Assembly: GCA_902779185.1 (NCBI GenBank)
Contig: CACZAM010000015.1
Coordinates: 1 to 39,876, forward strand
Source: an uncultured Eubacteriales bacterium
GTDB lineage: Bacteria > Bacillota > Clostridia > Peptostreptococcales > Anaerovoracaceae
Direction: 5' to 3'
Length of the DNA: 39,876 bases
Shown one piece after another: positions 2,579-32,955 of the stretch. The position numbers were made by a program, and so were the translations under genes. Every line of letters begins with the position of its first letter. Positions within the stretch are counted from its first letter, which is position 1. The notes below the pieces were generated by a model that worked only from the letters and a program-made list of their open reading frames with translations, was not told the origin of the DNA and did not search any database.

Positions 2579-3655
2579 TTATTCCGTACTAAAGGAAACG
2601 TGATCTCCGCGGGCAACTACAGTCTCATAGCCAACCGAGGAAATGCGCATCGCCATGCAGCGAATGCACTCAGCCGCTTCATCTCCTGTGCATATCTTAT
2701 TGTCGTAAAGCAGGTATTTGCCCCTTACATCAGAAGGTGAAAGATTCGGCATTACTACGTTAGCACCGGCAAGTATGCCTTTCTCACGTCCGCGCGGATC
2801 AATTGTGCCGAGAGCGGTCGTCGCCGGAAGCAGCACATCAGGAAGAAGCAGCCGTATTATGGACAGCAATCTGATTGTCATATCTACTGTCCCGGCTTCG
2901 TGTTCAGCAAACTGCGTATCATGATGAGGTATGAACGGCCCTATTCCAACCATCTCCGGTCTGAATTCTTTCAAAAACCTGAGATCCTTCACCAGATGCT
3001 CAGTCGTCTGATACGGCGAGCCCACCATCATTCCACAGCCTACCTGATATCCGATGTCCTTTAGATCTTTCAGGCACTGCATCCTGTGATTGAAAGACAT
3101 CTCTGCCGGATGCAGCATCTCATAGTGATCCTTATCTGCAGTTTCATGCCTCAGAAGATAACGGTCCGCTCCTGCATCAAAGAACTTCTTATAACTCTCC
3201 TTCTCGAATTCCCCCAGAGACAGCGTAACTGCGCAGTCAGGATGTCTGTTCTTTATAGATTTTACGATCGAAACTATCAGCTCATCCGTATAATACGGGT
3301 CCTCTCCTCCCTGCAGCACAAAAGTGCGGAATCCAAGCTCATAGCCCGTATCGCAGCACGAGAGGATCTGCTCCTCATTGAGGCGGTAGCGTTCCGCATT
3401 GGCATTGCCTCTGCGTATGCCGCAATAATAGCAATTGTTTCTGCATATATTGGAAATCTCAACAAGTCCGCGCAAATAAACGTCTTTGCCGTAATACTTT
3501 TCGCGTACCGCCCTGGCTTTTCCGGCCAGATATTCGTCAAAGCCGGGGGAATCGCAAAGCAGTATAGCAGCGAACTCCTCATCTGTCAGATTATTTTCAG
3601 CCTCAAGCTTGTCTGCAAGCTCAAAACAGCGTGATCTTGTTTCCGTTTCTCCCAT
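2579..3655 (-). CDS. hydE: [FeFe]-hydrogenase H-cluster maturase HydE (radical SAM)
   Basis: HydE is a radical-SAM enzyme that acts with HydG and HydF to build the diiron subcluster of [FeFe]-hydrogenase. The [4Fe-4S] binding motif is CRNNCYYC (C71, C75, C78 from the chosen start). The QGGED and TTALGTIDPRGREKG segments and the 358-residue length match the family. The frame extends upstream to an ATG at 3718, but the ATG at 3655 has a strong GGGGAGA SD and starts where known HydE proteins begin, so I chose it. Neither hydF, hydG nor a hydrogenase gene is in the window. Upstream lies a separate promoter-terminator unit (3768-3907). The neighbouring cysK makes cysteine; this may be coincidence, although cysteine-derived ligands are part of H-cluster assembly. 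Confidence 0.93.
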   Translation of the reverse strand: MGETETRSRCFELADKLEAENNLTDEEFAAILLCDSPGFDEYLAGKARAVREKYYGKDVYLRGLVEISNICRNNCYYCGIRRGNANAERYRLNEEQILSCCDTGYELGFRTFVLQGGEDPYYTDELIVSIVKSIKNRHPDCAVTLSLGEFEKESYKKFFDAGADRYLLRHETADKDHYEMLHPAEMSFNHRMQCLKDLKDIGYQVGCGMMVGSPYQTTEHLVKDLRFLKEFRPEMVGIGPFIPHHDTQFAEHEAGTVDMTIRLLSIIRLLLPDVLLPATTALGTIDPRGREKGILAGANVVMPNLSPSDVRGKYLLYDNKICTGDEAAECIRCMAMRISSVGYETVVARGDHVSFSTE

Positions 3656-25739: not shown

Positions 25740-27167
25740 TTACTTCCAGCAGTCGACCTTGTCATCCGAGAGGCCGATATCAGCAGCCTTGAAATGAGGC
25801 GCCTTGCCTTCCTTCTTCTGCTTTGTGTAATCGTCGAGAGCCTTTACAGCAACTCCGCCGAGGATAGCGATGGTAGGAATGTTGCATACTACCATGAGTC
25901 CCTGGAACATGTCAGCTGTATCCCATACGAGGCCTGCGCTCGAGATAGCTCCGAGGAATACGAGAACGATCGCGATAGCTCTGAAAATAGTAACCTCTGT
26001 CTTGGACATGTCTCTCTTGAGGATGAATGCGAAGCATCCCTCGCAGTATGAGTAGTTACCGATCAGAGTAGTAAATGCGAACAGTGTCATCGAAACAGCA
26101 ATGAAGATAGGTCCGAAGCCGCCAAGTGATGTGTGGAGGCATGTCTGTACGTAACCTGCAGCATTGGCTCCGCCGTCCTCGAGTACAAAGTCAGCAGGAT
26201 TTACCGACATTGTGGACAGGCACATGAATGCTGTTGCGGAACAGATCAGCAGTGTGTCGATGAATACGGACAGTGTCTGTACGAGACCCTGCTTGACCGG
26301 GTGAACTACGTCAGCCTTGGCAGCAGCGTTCGGAGCAGAACCCATACCAGCCTCGTTGGAGTAGAGACCTCTCTTGAGTCCCCACATGATCACGGAACCG
26401 GTGAATCCTCCGAATATTGCCTGGAAGTCAAACGCGGTGCTGAAGATCAGTCCGAACATAGCTCCGAAGTTCTTTGCGTTGAGAACGAGAACTACGAGGG
26501 AGATGGCAACGTAGAGGACGCCCATTACAGGTACGAGGAATCCGGTTACGTCTGTCAGTTTCTTAGCTCCTCCGAGGATCGTAGCGGCAAAGAATACAGC
26601 GAGGATGACTCCGATAACCATTGGAGTCGACTTTTCATTATAGAAGCTGAATGTCGCGAATGTCGACTGCAGGTTGTATGCAGCAAGCATATTGTATCCT
26701 ACAGCGTATGTGAAGATGATCAGTACCGAGAACACTACGCCGAGCCATCTCTGACCGAGAGCGTTCTGCATATAGTACGAAGGTCCTCCGTAATATGTGC
26801 CGTCATCAGCTTTCTTCTTATAGATCTGTGCCAGTGTTGACTCGATGAACGCGTTGGCTCCGCCGAAAATAGCGGTGATCCACATCCAGAAGATGGCTCC
26901 AGGGCCGCCGAGGATGATAGCAGTACATACACCGATGATGTTTCCTGTACCTACACGGGAAGCTGTCGAAACCATCAGGGCTCCGAACGATGAGATGCCC
27001 TTTTCATCAGCAGGCTTCTCGCTTACTACTTTGAACATCTCCTTGAACATGCGGATCTGTACGCCTTTGGTTCTGATCGTGAAGTAGATACCTACTGCGA
27101 TCAGGAAAAGAGGAACGATGTAAGGCTTGTACAGAATGTTGTTCATGAAACCTACAAAACCACTCAT
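25740..27167 (-). CDS. Sodium:alanine/glycine symporter (AGCS family)
   Basis: This 475-residue transporter has about 11 membrane helices and imports alanine or glycine with Na+. GTGNIIGVCTAIILGGPGAIFWMW near residues 73-97, GGPSYYMQNALG and KRGLYSNEAGMGSAPNAAA are hallmarks of the alanine or glycine:cation symporter family (DagA/AlsT). A GGAG SD precedes the ATG. It is monocistronic, with a roughly 160-base leader carrying hairpins. Which amino acid is preferred cannot be told from sequence. Confidence 0.94.
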   Translation of the reverse strand: MSGFVGFMNNILYKPYIVPLFLIAVGIYFTIRTKGVQIRMFKEMFKVVSEKPADEKGISSFGALMVSTASRVGTGNIIGVCTAIILGGPGAIFWMWITAIFGGANAFIESTLAQIYKKKADDGTYYGGPSYYMQNALGQRWLGVVFSVLIIFTYAVGYNMLAAYNLQSTFATFSFYNEKSTPMVIGVILAVFFAATILGGAKKLTDVTGFLVPVMGVLYVAISLVVLVLNAKNFGAMFGLIFSTAFDFQAIFGGFTGSVIMWGLKRGLYSNEAGMGSAPNAAAKADVVHPVKQGLVQTLSVFIDTLLICSATAFMCLSTMSVNPADFVLEDGGANAAGYVQTCLHTSLGGFGPIFIAVSMTLFAFTTLIGNYSYCEGCFAFILKRDMSKTEVTIFRAIAIVLVFLGAISSAGLVWDTADMFQGLMVVCNIPTIAILGGVAVKALDDYTKQKKEGKAPHFKAADIGLSDDKVDCWK

Positions 27168-27329
27168 ATAATTCTCCTTTTGTTAATATAGTTTTATGAT
27201 AACAATTGATAAAAACATTCAGCCGGTAAAATGGGATTCCGGCTCTTATCTGCTATATTTTATCAAAATAAGCAGAGCCTTGTCTATAATGTGAACAAAT
27301 TGTGATGAAAAATGTATAATTGTATACAA
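27168..27329 (-). promoter_or_regulatory. Leader region of the symporter with palindromes and hairpin
   Basis: The 162-base gap holds a 12-base palindrome (ATTGTATACAAT, 27316-27327), an AGCCGG/CCGGCT hairpin (27221-27244) followed on the minus strand by a short T-run, and a near-palindrome TGATAACAATTGATAA close to the ATG. A possible promoter is TTTATC-17-TATATT just before the SD. No glycine-riboswitch core was recognised. The hairpin may be the terminator of the upstream HesB-like operon. Confidence 0.35.
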
Positions 27330-27656
27330 TCAAACCGGCGGTTGCCATATGCAGCAGACCGCGGCTGGTTTTATGCCGTCAAGCTCGAACTTCTCGATCC
27401 ACGGATACTTCTCATATCTGATCGCTGCATTTTCTTCGAGCAGCACACCGTGAACAGGTATATATACTGATCCTATCTGCGATTCTTCGCGCAGATATCC
27501 TTCTGCGAACTCCGAACCGTCCCCGTCGGTAAAACTTACCGACACCTCCGCCCTGGAGGGATCGCATCAGGTGCGGGCGTCATCAGCCAGAAGCACGATG
27601 TCGTTGTACCCAAGCATCTTCATATATTCTATAGCGTTGTCGTTCAGTCGGATCAT
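27330..27656 (-). CDS. HesB-like selenoprotein with in-frame TGA (Sec30)
   Basis: Reading from the ATG at 27656, the frame is open for 108 residues except for one TGA at 27569-27567 (codon 30), followed directly by a Cys codon, so the motif is Sec-Cys. Protein-like sequence continues unbroken on both sides: before it MIRLNDNAIEYMKMLGYNDI, after it a segment ending in KYPWIEKFELDGI and AVCC. This fits small HesB/IscA-related selenoproteins (family TIGR01911 from memory), thought to act in iron-sulfur chemistry. An 8-bp hairpin with a G-U-U loop lies 31 bases after the TGA, where a bacterial SECIS is expected. A conventional ORF call would give only the C-terminal 71 residues from a GTG at 27545. 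The SD is weak. It follows the ProX-like gene by 24 bases in the same operon. A pseudogene remains possible. Confidence 0.72.
27525..27543 (-). promoter_or_regulatory. Candidate bacterial SECIS element
   Basis: On the minus strand GTCGGTAA-GTT-TTACCGAC is a perfect 8-bp stem with loop GUU, whose first base is G. The loop begins 31 bases after the TGA, within the 16-37-base range reported for bacterial SECIS elements, and the hairpin is wholly inside the coding frame. A second, closer hairpin (CCTCC-AGGGC-GGAGG, 27545-27559) overlaps the spacing and could compete; its loop is only 12 bases from the TGA. Confidence 0.6.
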
Positions 27657-27680
27657 TTTTGCGTTTCTGTTCTTTCTGAA

Positions 27681-28169
27681 CTAAAGCTTAACGAAGTGGA
27701 GCTCATTACCGTGTTTTTTGATAAGCTTTACCACGTCTCGTGTATTGATAAATACAGTCGCCGTGTTGTCACAAGGGTGGATCCCCATCAGTTTATTCTC
27801 GAAGTCCTTATCCATGTAAACGACGACATCCTTATCATCATTGGCCAGAACGCCGAAAGGAGTGACGGCACCGCGAATGAGCCCCATCTTTTCCATCAGA
27901 TCATCTTCTGAGGCAAATGTAAGTGGCCGTGTATCCTGTGCCTTGCGGAACTCTTTGAGGTTCACCTTTTTGTCCTCCAGACAGGTTATGAGATAGTACT
28001 TGCGCTTTTTGTCGTCGCGGACAAAGAGATTCTTAGCGATCTGCTCAGGATGAGGAAGATTGCATTCAAGCATCTCGTCTATTGTATAGACAGGTTTGTG
28101 TTCGACTATCTCATATTTGATTTTGCTGTCATCAAGAATTTTTACTATATCTTCCTTTGTAAGTGCCAT
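27681..28169 (-). CDS. ProX/YbaK-type prolyl-tRNA editing (aminoacyl-tRNA deacylase) protein
   Basis: This 162-residue YbaK/EbsC-domain protein resembles the free-standing editing proteins (ProX, PrdX, ProXp-ala) that hydrolyse mischarged Ala- or Cys-tRNA(Pro). Family features include KNLFVRDDKKRKYYL, the lysine-rich core KVNLKEFRKAQDTRPLTFASEDDLMEKMGL and GAVTPFGVLAND. The SD GGGACTGAAAG precedes the ATG. It lies 17 bases after the HerA-like gene and 24 bases before the HesB-like gene. The target tRNA cannot be decided. Confidence 0.87.
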   Translation of the reverse strand: MALTKEDIVKILDDSKIKYEIVEHKPVYTIDEMLECNLPHPEQIAKNLFVRDDKKRKYYLITCLEDKKVNLKEFRKAQDTRPLTFASEDDLMEKMGLIRGAVTPFGVLANDDKDVVVYMDKDFENKLMGIHPCDNTATVFINTRDVVKLIKKHGNELHFVKL

Positions 28170-28186: not shown

Positions 28187-29896
28187 TTATTTTTTGCCCG
28201 TAAGTGTTCCGAGGAGGTTGCGGCCAATCGCAGAGCCGATGTTGCCGCCGATAGTACGTCCTTTTTTACCGAGAACTGCTTCACCTATAGTTTTGCCGAT
28301 CTCTCTGCCAATGGTGCTTCCAGTGGATCTTATTACCTGACGCGTTCCGGACTTGCCCAGATAGCTGTCTGCGAGCTCGCCTATTCTTGAACCGCTTTCC
28401 TCTTCAGCCTTCGCGGCCGGTTTTACCTTTGGCTGCTGCACCGGCTGCTGAGCAGGCTCATCATAGTTTATGACGATGCCTTCATCGGCCGCTGGCTGCG
28501 CCTCCGGCGCAGCGGCAGGTATACCCGATGTGTTGCCGTATACCTGCCCGTCAGGCGCGGTAACGGTCCCGGCGCCTGACGCCGCGGCCGCACCCGGTAC
28601 ACGTCCTGTGATCACCTCGTATGCCGTTACATTATCGACCATAATGAGATATTTATTGTTGAGCGGCGAATAATCTACCGCATTTCTTCTCTCCTCATCC
28701 GTAAGAGCTCCCATTCGGCTTTCAGGAGGCAGCACGAATGCGTATTCCGCCATAGAAGGCGCGCCATTTTCGTCGAGCATCGAGACTACCGCCTCGCCTG
28801 TTCCGAGATTCTGCATGAGCTCCTTTGTATCAAACGCCGGATTCTCCCTGAAAGCATCAGCAGCGGCGTTCAGAGCCTTCTGCTCGGCCGGTGTATAGGC
28901 ATGCAGGCCATGTTCTATCTTGTTTCCAAGCTGCGACATCACTGATCCCGGAATGTCCCCCGGGCTTTGCGTTACGAAGAATATCGATACGCCCTTTGAT
29001 CTGATAAGCTTCACCACCTGCTCTATCTTCTCAAGCAGGCTCTTCGACGCGTTCTTGAACAGCAGATGTGCTTCATCAAAGAAGAACACCATCTTCGGTT
29101 TCTCAGGATCTCCCACTTCAGGCAGCACCTCGAACAGTTCTGACAGCAGATAGAGCATGAATGCCGAATACAATCTAGGCTTGTTGATCAGAGTCTCAGC
29201 ATCAAGGATGTTTATAATACCCCTCCCGTCAGGAGCTGTCAGGAAGAGATCCCTGATATCTATAGCAGGTTCTCCGAAGAAAGTGTCCGCTCCCTCTGAT
29301 TCAAGAGCTACTATCGCCCTTATGATCGCGGAAGCTGACTGCTGAGGTATCAGGCCGTAATCCATCTTGAACTCGCTGGAATGGTCGGCGCAGTACTGCA
29401 GTGTTGCTTTCATGTCCTTTGTATCCGTGAGTATCAGGCCAAGGTCGTCAGCTATCTTGAATATGACCTGCATCAGCTCTGTCTGCGTATCGTTGAGATC
29501 GAGCACCTGGCTGAAGAGCAGAGGCCCCATCTCCGATACAGTAGTACGGAGCGGTGTTCCTTTATCTGAATAAATATCGAATATCGAGACCGGGAATCCG
29601 CGGTAGATGAAATCATTCCTTATTTCAAAGCGGTCCAGCCTCTTCTGCATACCCTCGCTGTCGGTGCCGGGTACAGCTATACCGGCCATGTCCCCTTTTA
29701 CGTCGGACATAAATACCGGCACTCCTATCTGAGAAAAACTCTCAGCAAGGACCTTGAGAGTGACGGATTTTCCCGTGCCCGTAGCACCGCAGATGAATCC
29801 GTGCCTGTTGGCTTTATCAGGTCTCATACAGATCTTGTCACTGAGTGTTTCTCCATCGCCCTTCCTGGCGAAGTAAATCAATCCGTTATCTACCAT
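28187..29896 (-). CDS. HerA-like DNA-translocating ATPase (DUF853)
   Basis: A 569-residue ATPase of the HerA/FtsK-like DUF853 family. Walker A is GATGTGKS (about residues 37-44), Walker B is MVFFFDEAHLLF, and FVTQSPGDIPGSVMSQLGNKIEHG follows. The C-terminal ~100 residues are Ala/Pro/Gln-rich and end with a glycine-rich GRTIGGNIGSAIGRNLLGTLTGKK tail. The frame starts at 29941, but ATG 29896 has AGGAGG five bases upstream and is preferred. It may act on DNA in repair or as a standalone translocase. It heads an operon with the ProX-like and HesB-like genes, and an extended -10 (TGCTATAAT) is upstream. Confidence 0.88.
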   Translation of the reverse strand: MVDNGLIYFARKGDGETLSDKICMRPDKANRHGFICGATGTGKSVTLKVLAESFSQIGVPVFMSDVKGDMAGIAVPGTDSEGMQKRLDRFEIRNDFIYRGFPVSIFDIYSDKGTPLRTTVSEMGPLLFSQVLDLNDTQTELMQVIFKIADDLGLILTDTKDMKATLQYCADHSSEFKMDYGLIPQQSASAIIRAIVALESEGADTFFGEPAIDIRDLFLTAPDGRGIINILDAETLINKPRLYSAFMLYLLSELFEVLPEVGDPEKPKMVFFFDEAHLLFKNASKSLLEKIEQVVKLIRSKGVSIFFVTQSPGDIPGSVMSQLGNKIEHGLHAYTPAEQKALNAAADAFRENPAFDTKELMQNLGTGEAVVSMLDENGAPSMAEYAFVLPPESRMGALTDEERRNAVDYSPLNNKYLIMVDNVTAYEVITGRVPGAAAASGAGTVTAPDGQVYGNTSGIPAAAPEAQPAADEGIVINYDEPAQQPVQQPKVKPAAKAEEESGSRIGELADSYLGKSGTRQVIRSTGSTIGREIGKTIGEAVLGKKGRTIGGNIGSAIGRNLLGTLTGKK

Positions 29897-29939
29897 ATCT
29901 GCCTCCTTTGAACGAGGATCTTTGCCAATTATTGAGAAC

Positions 29940-29948
29940 ATTATAGCA
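29940..29948 (-). promoter_or_regulatory. Extended -10 promoter of the HerA-like operon
   Basis: On the minus strand TGCTATAAT is an extended -10 with no clear -35. The message would start at about 29933 and run 37 bases to the ATG at 29896. Confidence 0.5.
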
Positions 29949-30003
29949 TGGCATGCACTTTAATTGCTCCTGATATTGTTATATCATTATGGCGTATTTC
30001 GAA

Positions 30004-30019
30004 CCGGGCAAAAGCCCGG
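30004..30019 (+). repeat. 5'-UTR hairpin of the M16C peptidase gene
   Basis: CCGGGC-AAAA-GCCCGG is a perfect 6-bp hairpin 36 bases before the peptidase ATG. It has no T-run and may act as an mRNA stability or translation element. Confidence 0.4.
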
Positions 30020-30054
30020 ACATTAAAGCAAAATGTATTACCGGAGCATGACAA

Positions 30055-32955
30055 ATGACAGTAAATGACAAAATGCACGGTTTCACCGTGAAAAACATTC
30101 GTGAAATAAAAGAAATCGGCGGAAGACTCGTAGAGATGGAGCATGACGCGACAGGCGCAAGACTCGTCTGGGCTGATAACGGCGATGAGAACAAGCTCTT
30201 CTCCGTCGGATTCAGAACACTCCCGGAAAACAGCACCGGAGTGTTCCACATACTTGAGCACTCAGTGCTCTGCGGATCGGAAAAATATCCTGTCAAGGAG
30301 CCGTTCGTTGAGCTTCTGAAGACTTCGATGAACACCTTCCTCAATGCAATGACATTCCCGGACAAAACGGTTTATCCGGTCTCGAGCCGAATAGAACAGG
30401 ACTACCTGAATCTGATGGGGGTTTATCTTGACTGTGTCTTCAGACCTAACGTCCTTAAGGATCCTAATATTTTCTATCAGGAAGGATGGCATATTGATAC
30501 GACAGGCGATGAACCCGCCTACAAAGGTGTTGTGTTCAACGAAATGAAGGGAGCAATGTCCGAAGTCGATTCTGTCGCGGACGAGGCCATGACGGCTCTT
30601 CTCTTCCCTGACAGCTGCTATGGCTTCATTTCGGGCGGAGACCCGAAGCATATTCCGGATCTTACATATGACTCCTTTGTAGAGCAGTATAAGAGGTATT
30701 ACCATCCTTCGAATTCATACTTCTATCTCGATGGTGATGTTCCTCTTGACGCGACTCTGACAAAAATTGATGAATACATTTCCGGGTTCGACAGGCTTGA
30801 TGATGTGCCTGAGCTTGCTGTCCAGAAACCGGTAAAATCCGGGAAAATAATCAGCTATGCCGCAAGCGGCGAAGATGACAAGCCTCTCATATGTCTCGGA
30901 AAGATCATCAGCAGCTGGGAAGACAGAGATAAAATGCTCGCGCTCAGCGTCATTCTTGAGCAGATATCTGATTCCAATGAGTCTCCTCTAAAGCGGGCTG
31001 TTCTTTCTTCAGGACTCGCCGAGGACATGGAGATCTATATTTCAGACGGAATAGCTCAGCCATACCTCATGATGCTGTTCCGCGGAATAAGCGATGAAAA
31101 GAGCGAAAAACCTGACGCAGACTCACTCAGGGATATTGCAGAACGTCTCGTCACCATCGTTGAAGAAACAGTAAACAAGATAACGGAGGACGGATTCTCA
31201 AGGAGAGATCTCGAGGCATCCGTGAATCAGACAGACTTCAGATTCAGACAGTATCCTGAGCCGCAGGCGCTGTACAGAATGATCTCTGCATACTCCTCGT
31301 GGCTTTATGGCGGAGACCCTGCACTGTATCTCGCCACGGACTCATCGATCGCAAAGGTTCGTTCAATGATCGACAAAGGAGAAATGGAAGGCATTGCCAG
31401 AGAGATACTGGCGGATACATCCATGCTTTCAACCATCATTCTCATGCCTGACAGCAGTTATGCCGCAAAGGAAGCCGCTGTAGAAGCTGCCCGTGTAAAG
31501 GCTGAGATCGAAGCTCTTGACGGTCCGGGCAGAGAACAGCTTGAGGAGCTCAACAGAAAGCTGCTCGAATGGCAGCAGACCGATGACAGCGAAGAGGCTC
31601 TTGCGACCATACCTCAGCTCGACATCGCGGATATAGATCCTATGCCTCAGCTGATCCCTACAGAAGAGAAAGACGTATGCGGAGCAAAGATCCTGTTCCA
31701 TCAGCTTCCGTCAAACGGGATCGTTCATATCAACGCTTACTTCCCTGTCACACAGCTGGCATTATCCGAGCTGCCTGCAGCAGCGCTCATCACGGAATTC
31801 TTCAGGGATCTTCCGACAGAAAAATATGATGTTCTCACACTGCAGAACGAGATCCGTATGTATATCGGCGGCATCTCATTCGGACTTGACATTCTCGCGA
31901 AAGACATCGATTACATGGAATGCACGCCTTGCATCAGAGTAAGGGCGTCAGTACTCGAAGATAAAATGCCGGAAGCCGAAGAACTTATAGCCGGGATCCT
32001 GACAGGCACAAAGTTTGGTGACAAAGCCATGATGCGCGAACTGACCACTCAGATCGACGAGGATTCCAAGCGGGCAGCTATGGCTAACGGACACCGTCTC
32101 GGACTCTATGAAGCCAGATCCCACTGGTCGGCCAGAGACGCCGCGGCAGAAGCTGTCAATGGCTACAGCTTTATGCAGTACATGCATGGCATGAGTTCTG
32201 CTTCCAATGATGCGCTCGACGCATTCACCGCCTTTGCGGAGGAAGTGATCGGAAAAAGCATATGCAGAAAGAACGCCATCATAGGCGTGACAGCGGACAG
32301 CCGCCCTGACCTTTCAGGTTTTTTGGAGATGCTTCCTGAAGGAGAAGCAATGCCTGAAAAAAGCCATTATGAATCGGCACTTCCGCACAGGATGGGTATC
32401 GAAATACCAGCTGCGGTCTCTTTCGCCGTCACTGCATATGATCTGAAGCGTGACGGACACAGAATGAGCGGAAGCTATCAGGTAGCCTCCAACATCATCT
32501 CGCTCTCCCACCTGTGGAACAGCATCAGAGTGCAGGGCGGAGCCTACGGAGCTTCAATGTCAGCAGGCAGAACGGGCAGTGTTTTCTGCCACACATACAG
32601 GGATCCGAGCCCGGGGCGCTCTCTCGATATTTTCAGGACTATATCTGACTATTTGACCGGCTTCGCTTCAGATGCAGATCAGGATATAGACGGTTTCATA
32701 ATATCCACTATCGCCTCGACAGAACCACTTCTCTCACCTGCAGCCAGGGGCAGATCGGCAGACGACTTCTATCTGTCCGGTTTTACCGATGAGGACAGAA
32801 TCAGGATACGCCGGGAGATCCTGAATACAAAATCCGGCGATCTGGCCGGCTTAAGTGCAGTTCTTAAGGACATGGCAGAGAAAGGCACAGTATGTGTCGT
32901 AGGCCCGAAGTCTGCACTTGAGACCTGCGATGATCTCGAAATATTTGCTCTTTAA
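30055..32955 (+). CDS. M16C (PreP/insulysin-like) zinc metallopeptidase
   Basis: A 966-residue peptidase of the presequence-protease type, which encloses short peptides in a clamshell made of two halves. The inverted zinc motif is HILEH (H65, E68, H69), and E163 in NEMKG is the third ligand. The linked LDCVFRPN segment and C-terminal QGGAYGASM region (about residue 831) support this. GGAG precedes the ATG. No signal peptide is seen, so it acts in the cytoplasm, degrading peptides of roughly 10-70 residues. The gene is alone on its strand. Confidence 0.92.
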   Translation: MTVNDKMHGFTVKNIREIKEIGGRLVEMEHDATGARLVWADNGDENKLFSVGFRTLPENSTGVFHILEHSVLCGSEKYPVKEPFVELLKTSMNTFLNAMTFPDKTVYPVSSRIEQDYLNLMGVYLDCVFRPNVLKDPNIFYQEGWHIDTTGDEPAYKGVVFNEMKGAMSEVDSVADEAMTALLFPDSCYGFISGGDPKHIPDLTYDSFVEQYKRYYHPSNSYFYLDGDVPLDATLTKIDEYISGFDRLDDVPELAVQKPVKSGKIISYAASGEDDKPLICLGKIISSWEDRDKMLALSVILEQISDSNESPLKRAVLSSGLAEDMEIYISDGIAQPYLMMLFRGISDEKSEKPDADSLRDIAERLVTIVEETVNKITEDGFSRRDLEASVNQTDFRFRQYPEPQALYRMISAYSSWLYGGDPALYLATDSSIAKVRSMIDKGEMEGIAREILADTSMLSTIILMPDSSYAAKEAAVEAARVKAEIEALDGPGREQLEELNRKLLEWQQTDDSEEALATIPQLDIADIDPMPQLIPTEEKDVCGAKILFHQLPSNGIVHINAYFPVTQLALSELPAAALITEFFRDLPTEKYDVLTLQNEIRMYIGGISFGLDILAKDIDYMECTPCIRVRASVLEDKMPEAEELIAGILTGTKFGDKAMMRELTTQIDEDSKRAAMANGHRLGLYEARSHWSARDAAAEAVNGYSFMQYMHGMSSASNDALDAFTAFAEEVIGKSICRKNAIIGVTADSRPDLSGFLEMLPEGEAMPEKSHYESALPHRMGIEIPAAVSFAVTAYDLKRDGHRMSGSYQVASNIISLSHLWNSIRVQGGAYGASMSAGRTGSVFCHTYRDPSPGRSLDIFRTISDYLTGFASDADQDIDGFIISTIASTEPLLSPAARGRSADDFYLSGFTDEDRIRIRREILNTKSGDLAGLSAVLKDMAEKGTVCVVGPKSALETCDDLEIFAL

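Follow-up and report, generated by a model that had tools for sequence, protein, structure and literature searches.

The stretch of DNA analysed here (the window, 39,876 nucleotides) makes up contig C15 in the assembly (2.25 Mb, 79% complete) of an uncultured Eubacteriales bacterium. On its minus strand, from 27656 down to 27330, lies a frame of 108 codons that starts with ATG (27656-27654), ends with a TGA stop (27332-27330) and contains a single internal stop, the TGA of codon 30 (27567-27569), followed by a TGC codon (Cys31). When this TGA is read as selenocysteine (Sec, U), the frame runs from M1 to V108 and the 108-residue product reads MIRLNDNAIEYMKMLGYNDIVLLADDART-U-C-DPSRAEVSVSFTDGDG...AAVCCIWQPPV. 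A preliminary description of this DNA, in which the strand was unstated, had proposed such a clean frame broken by one TGA, with Sec30-Cys31 and no frameshift, and our reading agrees with it; a plus-strand reading of 27330-27656 was rejected because the frame there is unrelated. Under the standard code, the gene is replaced by a 71-residue fragment with a GTG start (27330-27545, minus strand), the C-terminal piece that had been foreseen, and also by a 29-residue N-terminal ORF (27567-27656) that had not. The window protein matched none of the Pfam and NCBIfam models, the latter including TIGR01911 and NF038090, and an Rfam search of 27300-27700 returned two matches, both far under the gathering score, which we took as chance.

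On the same strand, a gene for a YbaK/ProX-like aminoacyl-tRNA editing domain (27681-28169; PF04073, E 3.5e-28; under the TIGR00011 cut-off) and one for a HerA-like ATPase (28187-29941; PF05872, E 1.2e-186) lie upstream, and a gene of the sodium:alanine symporter family (AgcS; 25740-27167; PF01235, E 4e-148; TIGR00835 over its cut-off) lies downstream. Two minus-strand ORFs upstream of herA, at 29941-30261 and 30262-30705, gave no Pfam or NCBIfam match.

Homologues were collected in two ways. A single-sequence search against 60 relatives, among them 36 genus genomes, located the gene in 30, each with the TGA and each belonging to the genus. Profile searches covered the order (393 genomes, 31 with the gene) and the bacterial family (349 genomes, 66 with the gene); of these 66, 38 are among the 47 genus genomes and 28 lie outside the genus. 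Named relatives with the gene include Mogibacterium sp. from sheep and goat gut and uncultured Clostridiales. We read 64 of the 66 family homologues (G353 and G677 were counted but unread). All 64 carry Sec or Cys in the motif, a comparison that the preliminary description had suggested: 60 have the TGA, kept in all 38 genus genomes with the gene (genus n=47), and four have Cys-Cys (L089, L224, L225 and L226). These Cys forms have one open frame and occur in genomes without SelB over the cut-off. The in-frame UGA aligns with Cys in homologues, as is asked of a selenoprotein. Sec-Cys is found in 45 of the 60 TGA forms; in the remaining 15 the arrangement is Cys-Sec or CxxU, or the partner is missing, and their Sec may be shifted by one residue in the alignment.

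The position of the Cys beside Sec shifts in the wider family (L210-L223, L090 and L091), where Cys-Sec, CxxU and no Cys all occur, while the window clade has Sec-Cys; the partner Cys is absent in L213 and L215. A tandem pair of CC/Se-type genes (L213, L214) was observed in G279 and G399, and the L213 pair has Sec without a nearby Cys. In one genome (G031), N and a duplicated stretch interrupt the homologue (L044), which looks like an assembly fault rather than decay; L044 was omitted from alignment A1, and L089, which has no TGA, from A3.

Both halves of the frame appear to be under constraint. Against seven close relatives (7 of the 15 other short-form genes of alignment A1), pN/pS ranged from 0.09 to 0.19 in residues 1-29 and from 0.05 to 0.15 in residues 46-103; selection on the protein is of similar strength on the two sides of the TGA. 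Frame decay in close relatives, which the preliminary description had named as a sign of a pseudogene, was not seen. For residues 31-45, pS was 0.19-0.38 against 0.45-0.81 in the flanks, lower in all seven comparisons.

Within this stretch lies a bSECIS hairpin (27525-27543, minus strand), which reads GTCGGTAA-GTT-TTACCGAC from 27543 to 27525. Its stem counts 8 bp, or 9 if a flanking U-G pair is included, and its loop, GUU, begins 31 nt downstream of the TGA, in agreement with the earlier observation. The limits for bSECIS elements given in PMC13188914 are a loop of 3-9 nt, a stem of 4-16 bp, a G in the first two loop bases and a distance of 16-37 nt from the UGA, and the window hairpin (GUU loop, 8-9 bp, 31 nt) lies within them; the bSECIS prediction that had been proposed as a check gave -9.7 kcal/mol in a constraint scan of this type. 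Among 9035 other codon positions, taken from 19 ORFs of the window, 81 reached an equal or better score by chance, as did 1 of the 124 Cys codons included in them. By itself the hairpin score is about a 1% event; the case for a selenoprotein is carried by conservation, in the kept TGA, the low pN/pS on its two sides and the covariation of the hairpin.

In the alignment of 42 sequences (38 distinct), 98.4% of the stem cells pair, and six of the eight pairs show compensatory change on both sides. None of 500 shuffles reached any of five measures, a test in which kinship among the sequences can beat shuffles without structure, though the synonymous constraint agrees with it. When the partner arm was slid along the alignment, just 14-52% paired, and RNAalifold predicted the same stem. 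The 42 Sec forms scored between -12.0 and -4.2 kcal/mol (median -8.7) versus 0 to -2.6 in the four Cys forms, in which the bSECIS-type scan found no comparable hairpin. Normalised synonymous entropy, calculated on the majority residue of 39 UC-type genes (L044, L089, L090 and L091 are omitted from the table), lay between 0.58 and 0.98 over the 14 codons that precede the TGA, one at 0.26 excepted, fell to 0-0.39 in codons +6 to +12 and was 0.52-0.88 in codons +13 to +19. A small hairpin (CCUCC/GGAGG; 27545-27559, minus strand) lies immediately 3' of the TGA and forms 4-8 pairs in 40 of 40 UC-type genes examined, its 5' arm slipping by one base between the short and the long clade; it possibly belongs to the SECIS element. 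At the level of sequence, these comparisons establish that the frame is conserved through UGA30 and that a bSECIS-type hairpin is maintained downstream.

The preliminary description had also asked for the selenocysteine machinery, and selA, selB, selC and selD, the set expected with a bacterial selenoprotein, were all found in the host genome. On contig C10, the tRNA-Sec gene selC (76498-76591, 68.7 bits), selA (at 76638, 544 bits) and selB (at 78092, 368 bits) are consecutive, and selD lies at 62728-63666 (373 bits) with its own in-frame TGA within a SAGGUGAK motif, by which the host SelD is, as read from its gene, a selenoprotein itself. A second RF01852 match, on C11 (49.6 bits versus a cut-off of 47), stands amid weaker C11 matches and is probably an ordinary tRNA. 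Across the 47 genus genomes, 37 had both our gene and selA (with the partial selA of G019 scored as present), one had the gene only, six had selA with the gene not found and three had neither (Fisher p 0.019). G012 (82% complete) has the gene, yet neither selA nor SelB over the cut-off. Outside the genus, SelB was over the cut-off in 3 of 3 Sec-form genomes and in 0 of 4 Cys-form genomes tested. All these counts are of sequences, not of independent events.

If the TGA were an ordinary stop, or the gene a pseudogene, translation would terminate at codon 30 and the second half would be untranslated or a separate short gene. The two short standard-code ORFs fit this, and the Sec reading itself rests on sequence; against it stand the TGA in every genus genome with the gene, the low pN/pS on either side of it, the single open frame of Cys forms in SelB-lacking genomes and the covarying hairpin, and we regard a simple stop as extremely unlikely. 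The window gene is very probably a real selenoprotein gene.

Which family the protein belongs to was addressed by profile comparison (hhalign). A profile of the window's family matched 30 members of NF041239 (the CC/Se motif family) at 96% in an alignment of 92 columns that places Sec on Sec, and at 94% with Cys masked, versus a maximum of 1.8% in 20 column shuffles; the homology is thus full-length with Sec aligned. The same profile reached 6% against 20 TIGR01911-type loci, none of which is over that model's cut-off. These samples are 30 of 100 NF041239 places and 20 of 64 TIGR01911 places, of which the tree took six and four. At the curated NF041239 cut-off (40 bits) the window protein itself gave no match, and L046 scored 12.4 bits. 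Among ten further relatives run against NCBIfam, seven matched NF041239 (E 7e-10 to 0.12, 12.5-38.9 bits, all below the cut-off), and L217, L216 and L084 gave no NF041239 match. A tree with 76 rows gathered the UC-type rows, 45 in number, into a single clade (support 100/98) separate from the CC/Se and HesB samples; the tree has 104 columns and several long branches, which leave its deeper order unsure, and L226, L230 and L231 were omitted. Judged by these sequence comparisons, the window protein falls into a distinct Sec-Cys (UC) clade whose relatives are the CC/Se-motif selenoproteins (NF041239), and is very probably a new variant of a known selenoprotein family. No model for the UC clade was found in Pfam or NCBIfam, and TIGR01911 was rejected as the direct parent on the 6% profile comparison and the missing model match.

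The preliminary description had called the protein HesB/IscA-related. AlphaFold2, run on a shallow alignment of 14 sequences, gave five models with pLDDT 82.6, 82.1, 76.2, 48.6 and 39.5, lowest at the Sec site and the C-terminus. A Foldseek search of the PDB placed IscA, SufA and Fe-S-biosynthesis-type proteins at ranks 1-8 (probability 0.96-1.00, query TM 0.42-0.60, E 0.005-0.034), with no match at E <= 0.001. A HesB/IscA fold is probable on these models. The relation finds support in the predicted fold, and did not extend to direct family membership, in which the window's profile is close to CC/Se and not to TIGR01911.

The same evidence bears on the possibility that the gene codes for a true Fe-S assembly selenoprotein of the HesB/IscA type (TIGR01911 or NF038090). 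The predicted fold is what this assignment would lead one to expect, the CC/Se family compares with the same TIGR01911-type set at 93% (65% with Cys masked), and a bridging relative, L213, has weak matches to TIGR01911 (E 0.041) and NF038090 (E 0.12) besides NF041239. IscA-type Fe-S carriers have a conserved C-terminal Cys pair. In our family a C-terminal Cys-Cys is present in 15 of the 31 members of alignment A1, all of them among its 16 short forms, but it is missing in 14 long forms, L046 and L029; that the pair is not conserved counts against a standard Fe-S carrier, and the direct comparison with the sub-cut-off TIGR01911-type loci and the absence of any Pfam or NCBIfam match count against the assignment as a whole. 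We consider it improbable. What had been described as Sec in an Fe-S-type protein very probably holds for the Sec, and Fe-S type is an analogy, direct membership of the HesB family being unsupported. We conclude that the window most probably, to a high degree of confidence, carries an intact selenoprotein gene in which Sec would be inserted at UGA30 in a SelB-mediated manner, yielding a 108-residue product with a predicted IscA/HesB fold, of a UC clade related to NF041239.

The neighbours had been taken as a hint at thiol quality control, in which the protein would be a partner of the YbaK-like and HerA-like proteins in thiol or translation quality control. The order herA-ybaK-gene-agcS, that of the window, recurs in 11 of 40 regions, and in 6 of the 40 the ybaK stop overlaps the start codon of the gene by one base. 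Nine long forms (L157-L164 and L169), however, have metN-metI-metQ-type genes downstream (domains checked in L157 only), and in other genera the neighbours are different; YbaK and HerA accompany the gene in the window's short clade and not in the long or winged-helix forms examined. As the neighbours change between clades, the link to thiol quality control is unsupported, and we hold a partnership of this kind for quite unlikely, with a chance just under one in ten. The metNIQ-type genes, as well as the proline racemase, Xaa-Pro aminopeptidase, SDH_alpha and aconitase X found beside single members, hint at amino-acid metabolism and were set aside as too lineage-bound for a claim.

In relatives the selenocysteine domain is also joined to other domains. 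The 31 proteins of alignment A1 comprise 16 short forms (107-119 residues), 14 long forms (211-267 residues, one of which ends at a contig end) and one divergent short form. The extra C-terminal domain of the long forms resembles DUF7674 (PF24722), with 6 of the 31 proteins matching at E <= 1 (best 1.7e-7). In five genomes from two other genera of the family, the reading frame of the Sec domain meets no other stop and continues into a second domain some 60-70 residues long (L083, L085, L087 and L088 from base 1501; L228 at 2734-3258, minus strand). Matches to this domain are weak and fall in the same region, namely HTH_27 (E 0.035, L083), HTH_24 (E 0.04, L087) and, for a profile of the five, a BlaI structure (E 0.32); it is a probable winged helix. 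L172 (G095) was left uncounted as a fusion, since the tblastn match of the winged-helix query passes in-frame stops. L229 (G656, same genus) belongs to the long, DUF7674-like fusions; the tree places its Sec domain among the winged-helix forms, which suggests that its C-terminal part was exchanged.

Following established bacterial Sec biology, SelB bound to the hairpin would bring Sec-tRNA(Sec) to UGA30. The resulting Sec30-Cys31 pair may serve redox chemistry, or bind a soft metal, as a selenol-thiol site on an IscA-like scaffold. The domain may act as a small carrier or sensor that stands alone in the window and that relatives combine with a DUF7674-like or probable winged-helix domain. We put forward this function, a selenol-thiol site in a small carrier or sensor domain, tentatively and at less than even confidence; the neighbours that differ from clade to clade and the absent partner Cys of L213 and L215 count against it. 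A bolder and rather doubtful version is that the UC domain is a Sec-based sensor: the winged-helix form would be a transcription regulator with Sec as its sensing residue, and the stand-alone and DUF7674-like forms would be the same sensor with other outputs. The fusion with a probable DNA-binding domain would make a Sec-based regulator directly testable, and of all the findings it most deserves to be followed up.

A 2026 review lists 119 selenoprotein families or subfamilies; in the part of its text available, the word DNA-binding is absent and one putative regulatory protein, of the FmdB family, is listed (PMC13188914). In the literature searched, with subscription papers mostly outside its reach, we found no description of the UC clade and, by title among the matches listed, no bacterial winged-helix selenoprotein; the matches listed for regulator or sensor selenoproteins likewise held nothing on the UC clade by title. 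The clade is easily missed in these gut bacteria, because the gene splits into 29 and 71 residues and no Pfam or NCBIfam model that was run recovers it. The family also looks more varied than the NF041239 model, the members that were read having the partner Cys after Sec, before it, three residues before it, or missing.

Compared with known systems, the window protein resembles in its predicted fold the IscA/SufA A-type carriers, which hold their cluster by three Cys ligands. The structures 1r94, 1s98, 1x0g and 2d2a occupy Foldseek ranks 1-4, 6 and 8 (TM 0.48-0.60, probability 1.00); the proteins differ in sequence (identity 9-15%), and the three Cys ligands are not all conserved in the window's family. 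With TIGR01911 and NF038090 it shares the predicted IscA/HesB fold, but no direct profile relation or model match; UC members mostly have U-x-[DA]-P (UCDS in L030, UCTG in L234), which resembles the UxGP given for TIGR01911. The C-terminal part of the long relatives is like DUF7674 (PF24722), a domain absent from the window protein. The closest likeness by profile is to NF041239 (Moor_selen_rel), whose members are small Sec proteins of about 90-110 residues for which Cys versions also exist. The window clade differs from this family in its Sec-Cys order as against CxxU, as given in PMC13188914, and in the DUF7674-like and probable winged-helix fusions that the UC clade contains.
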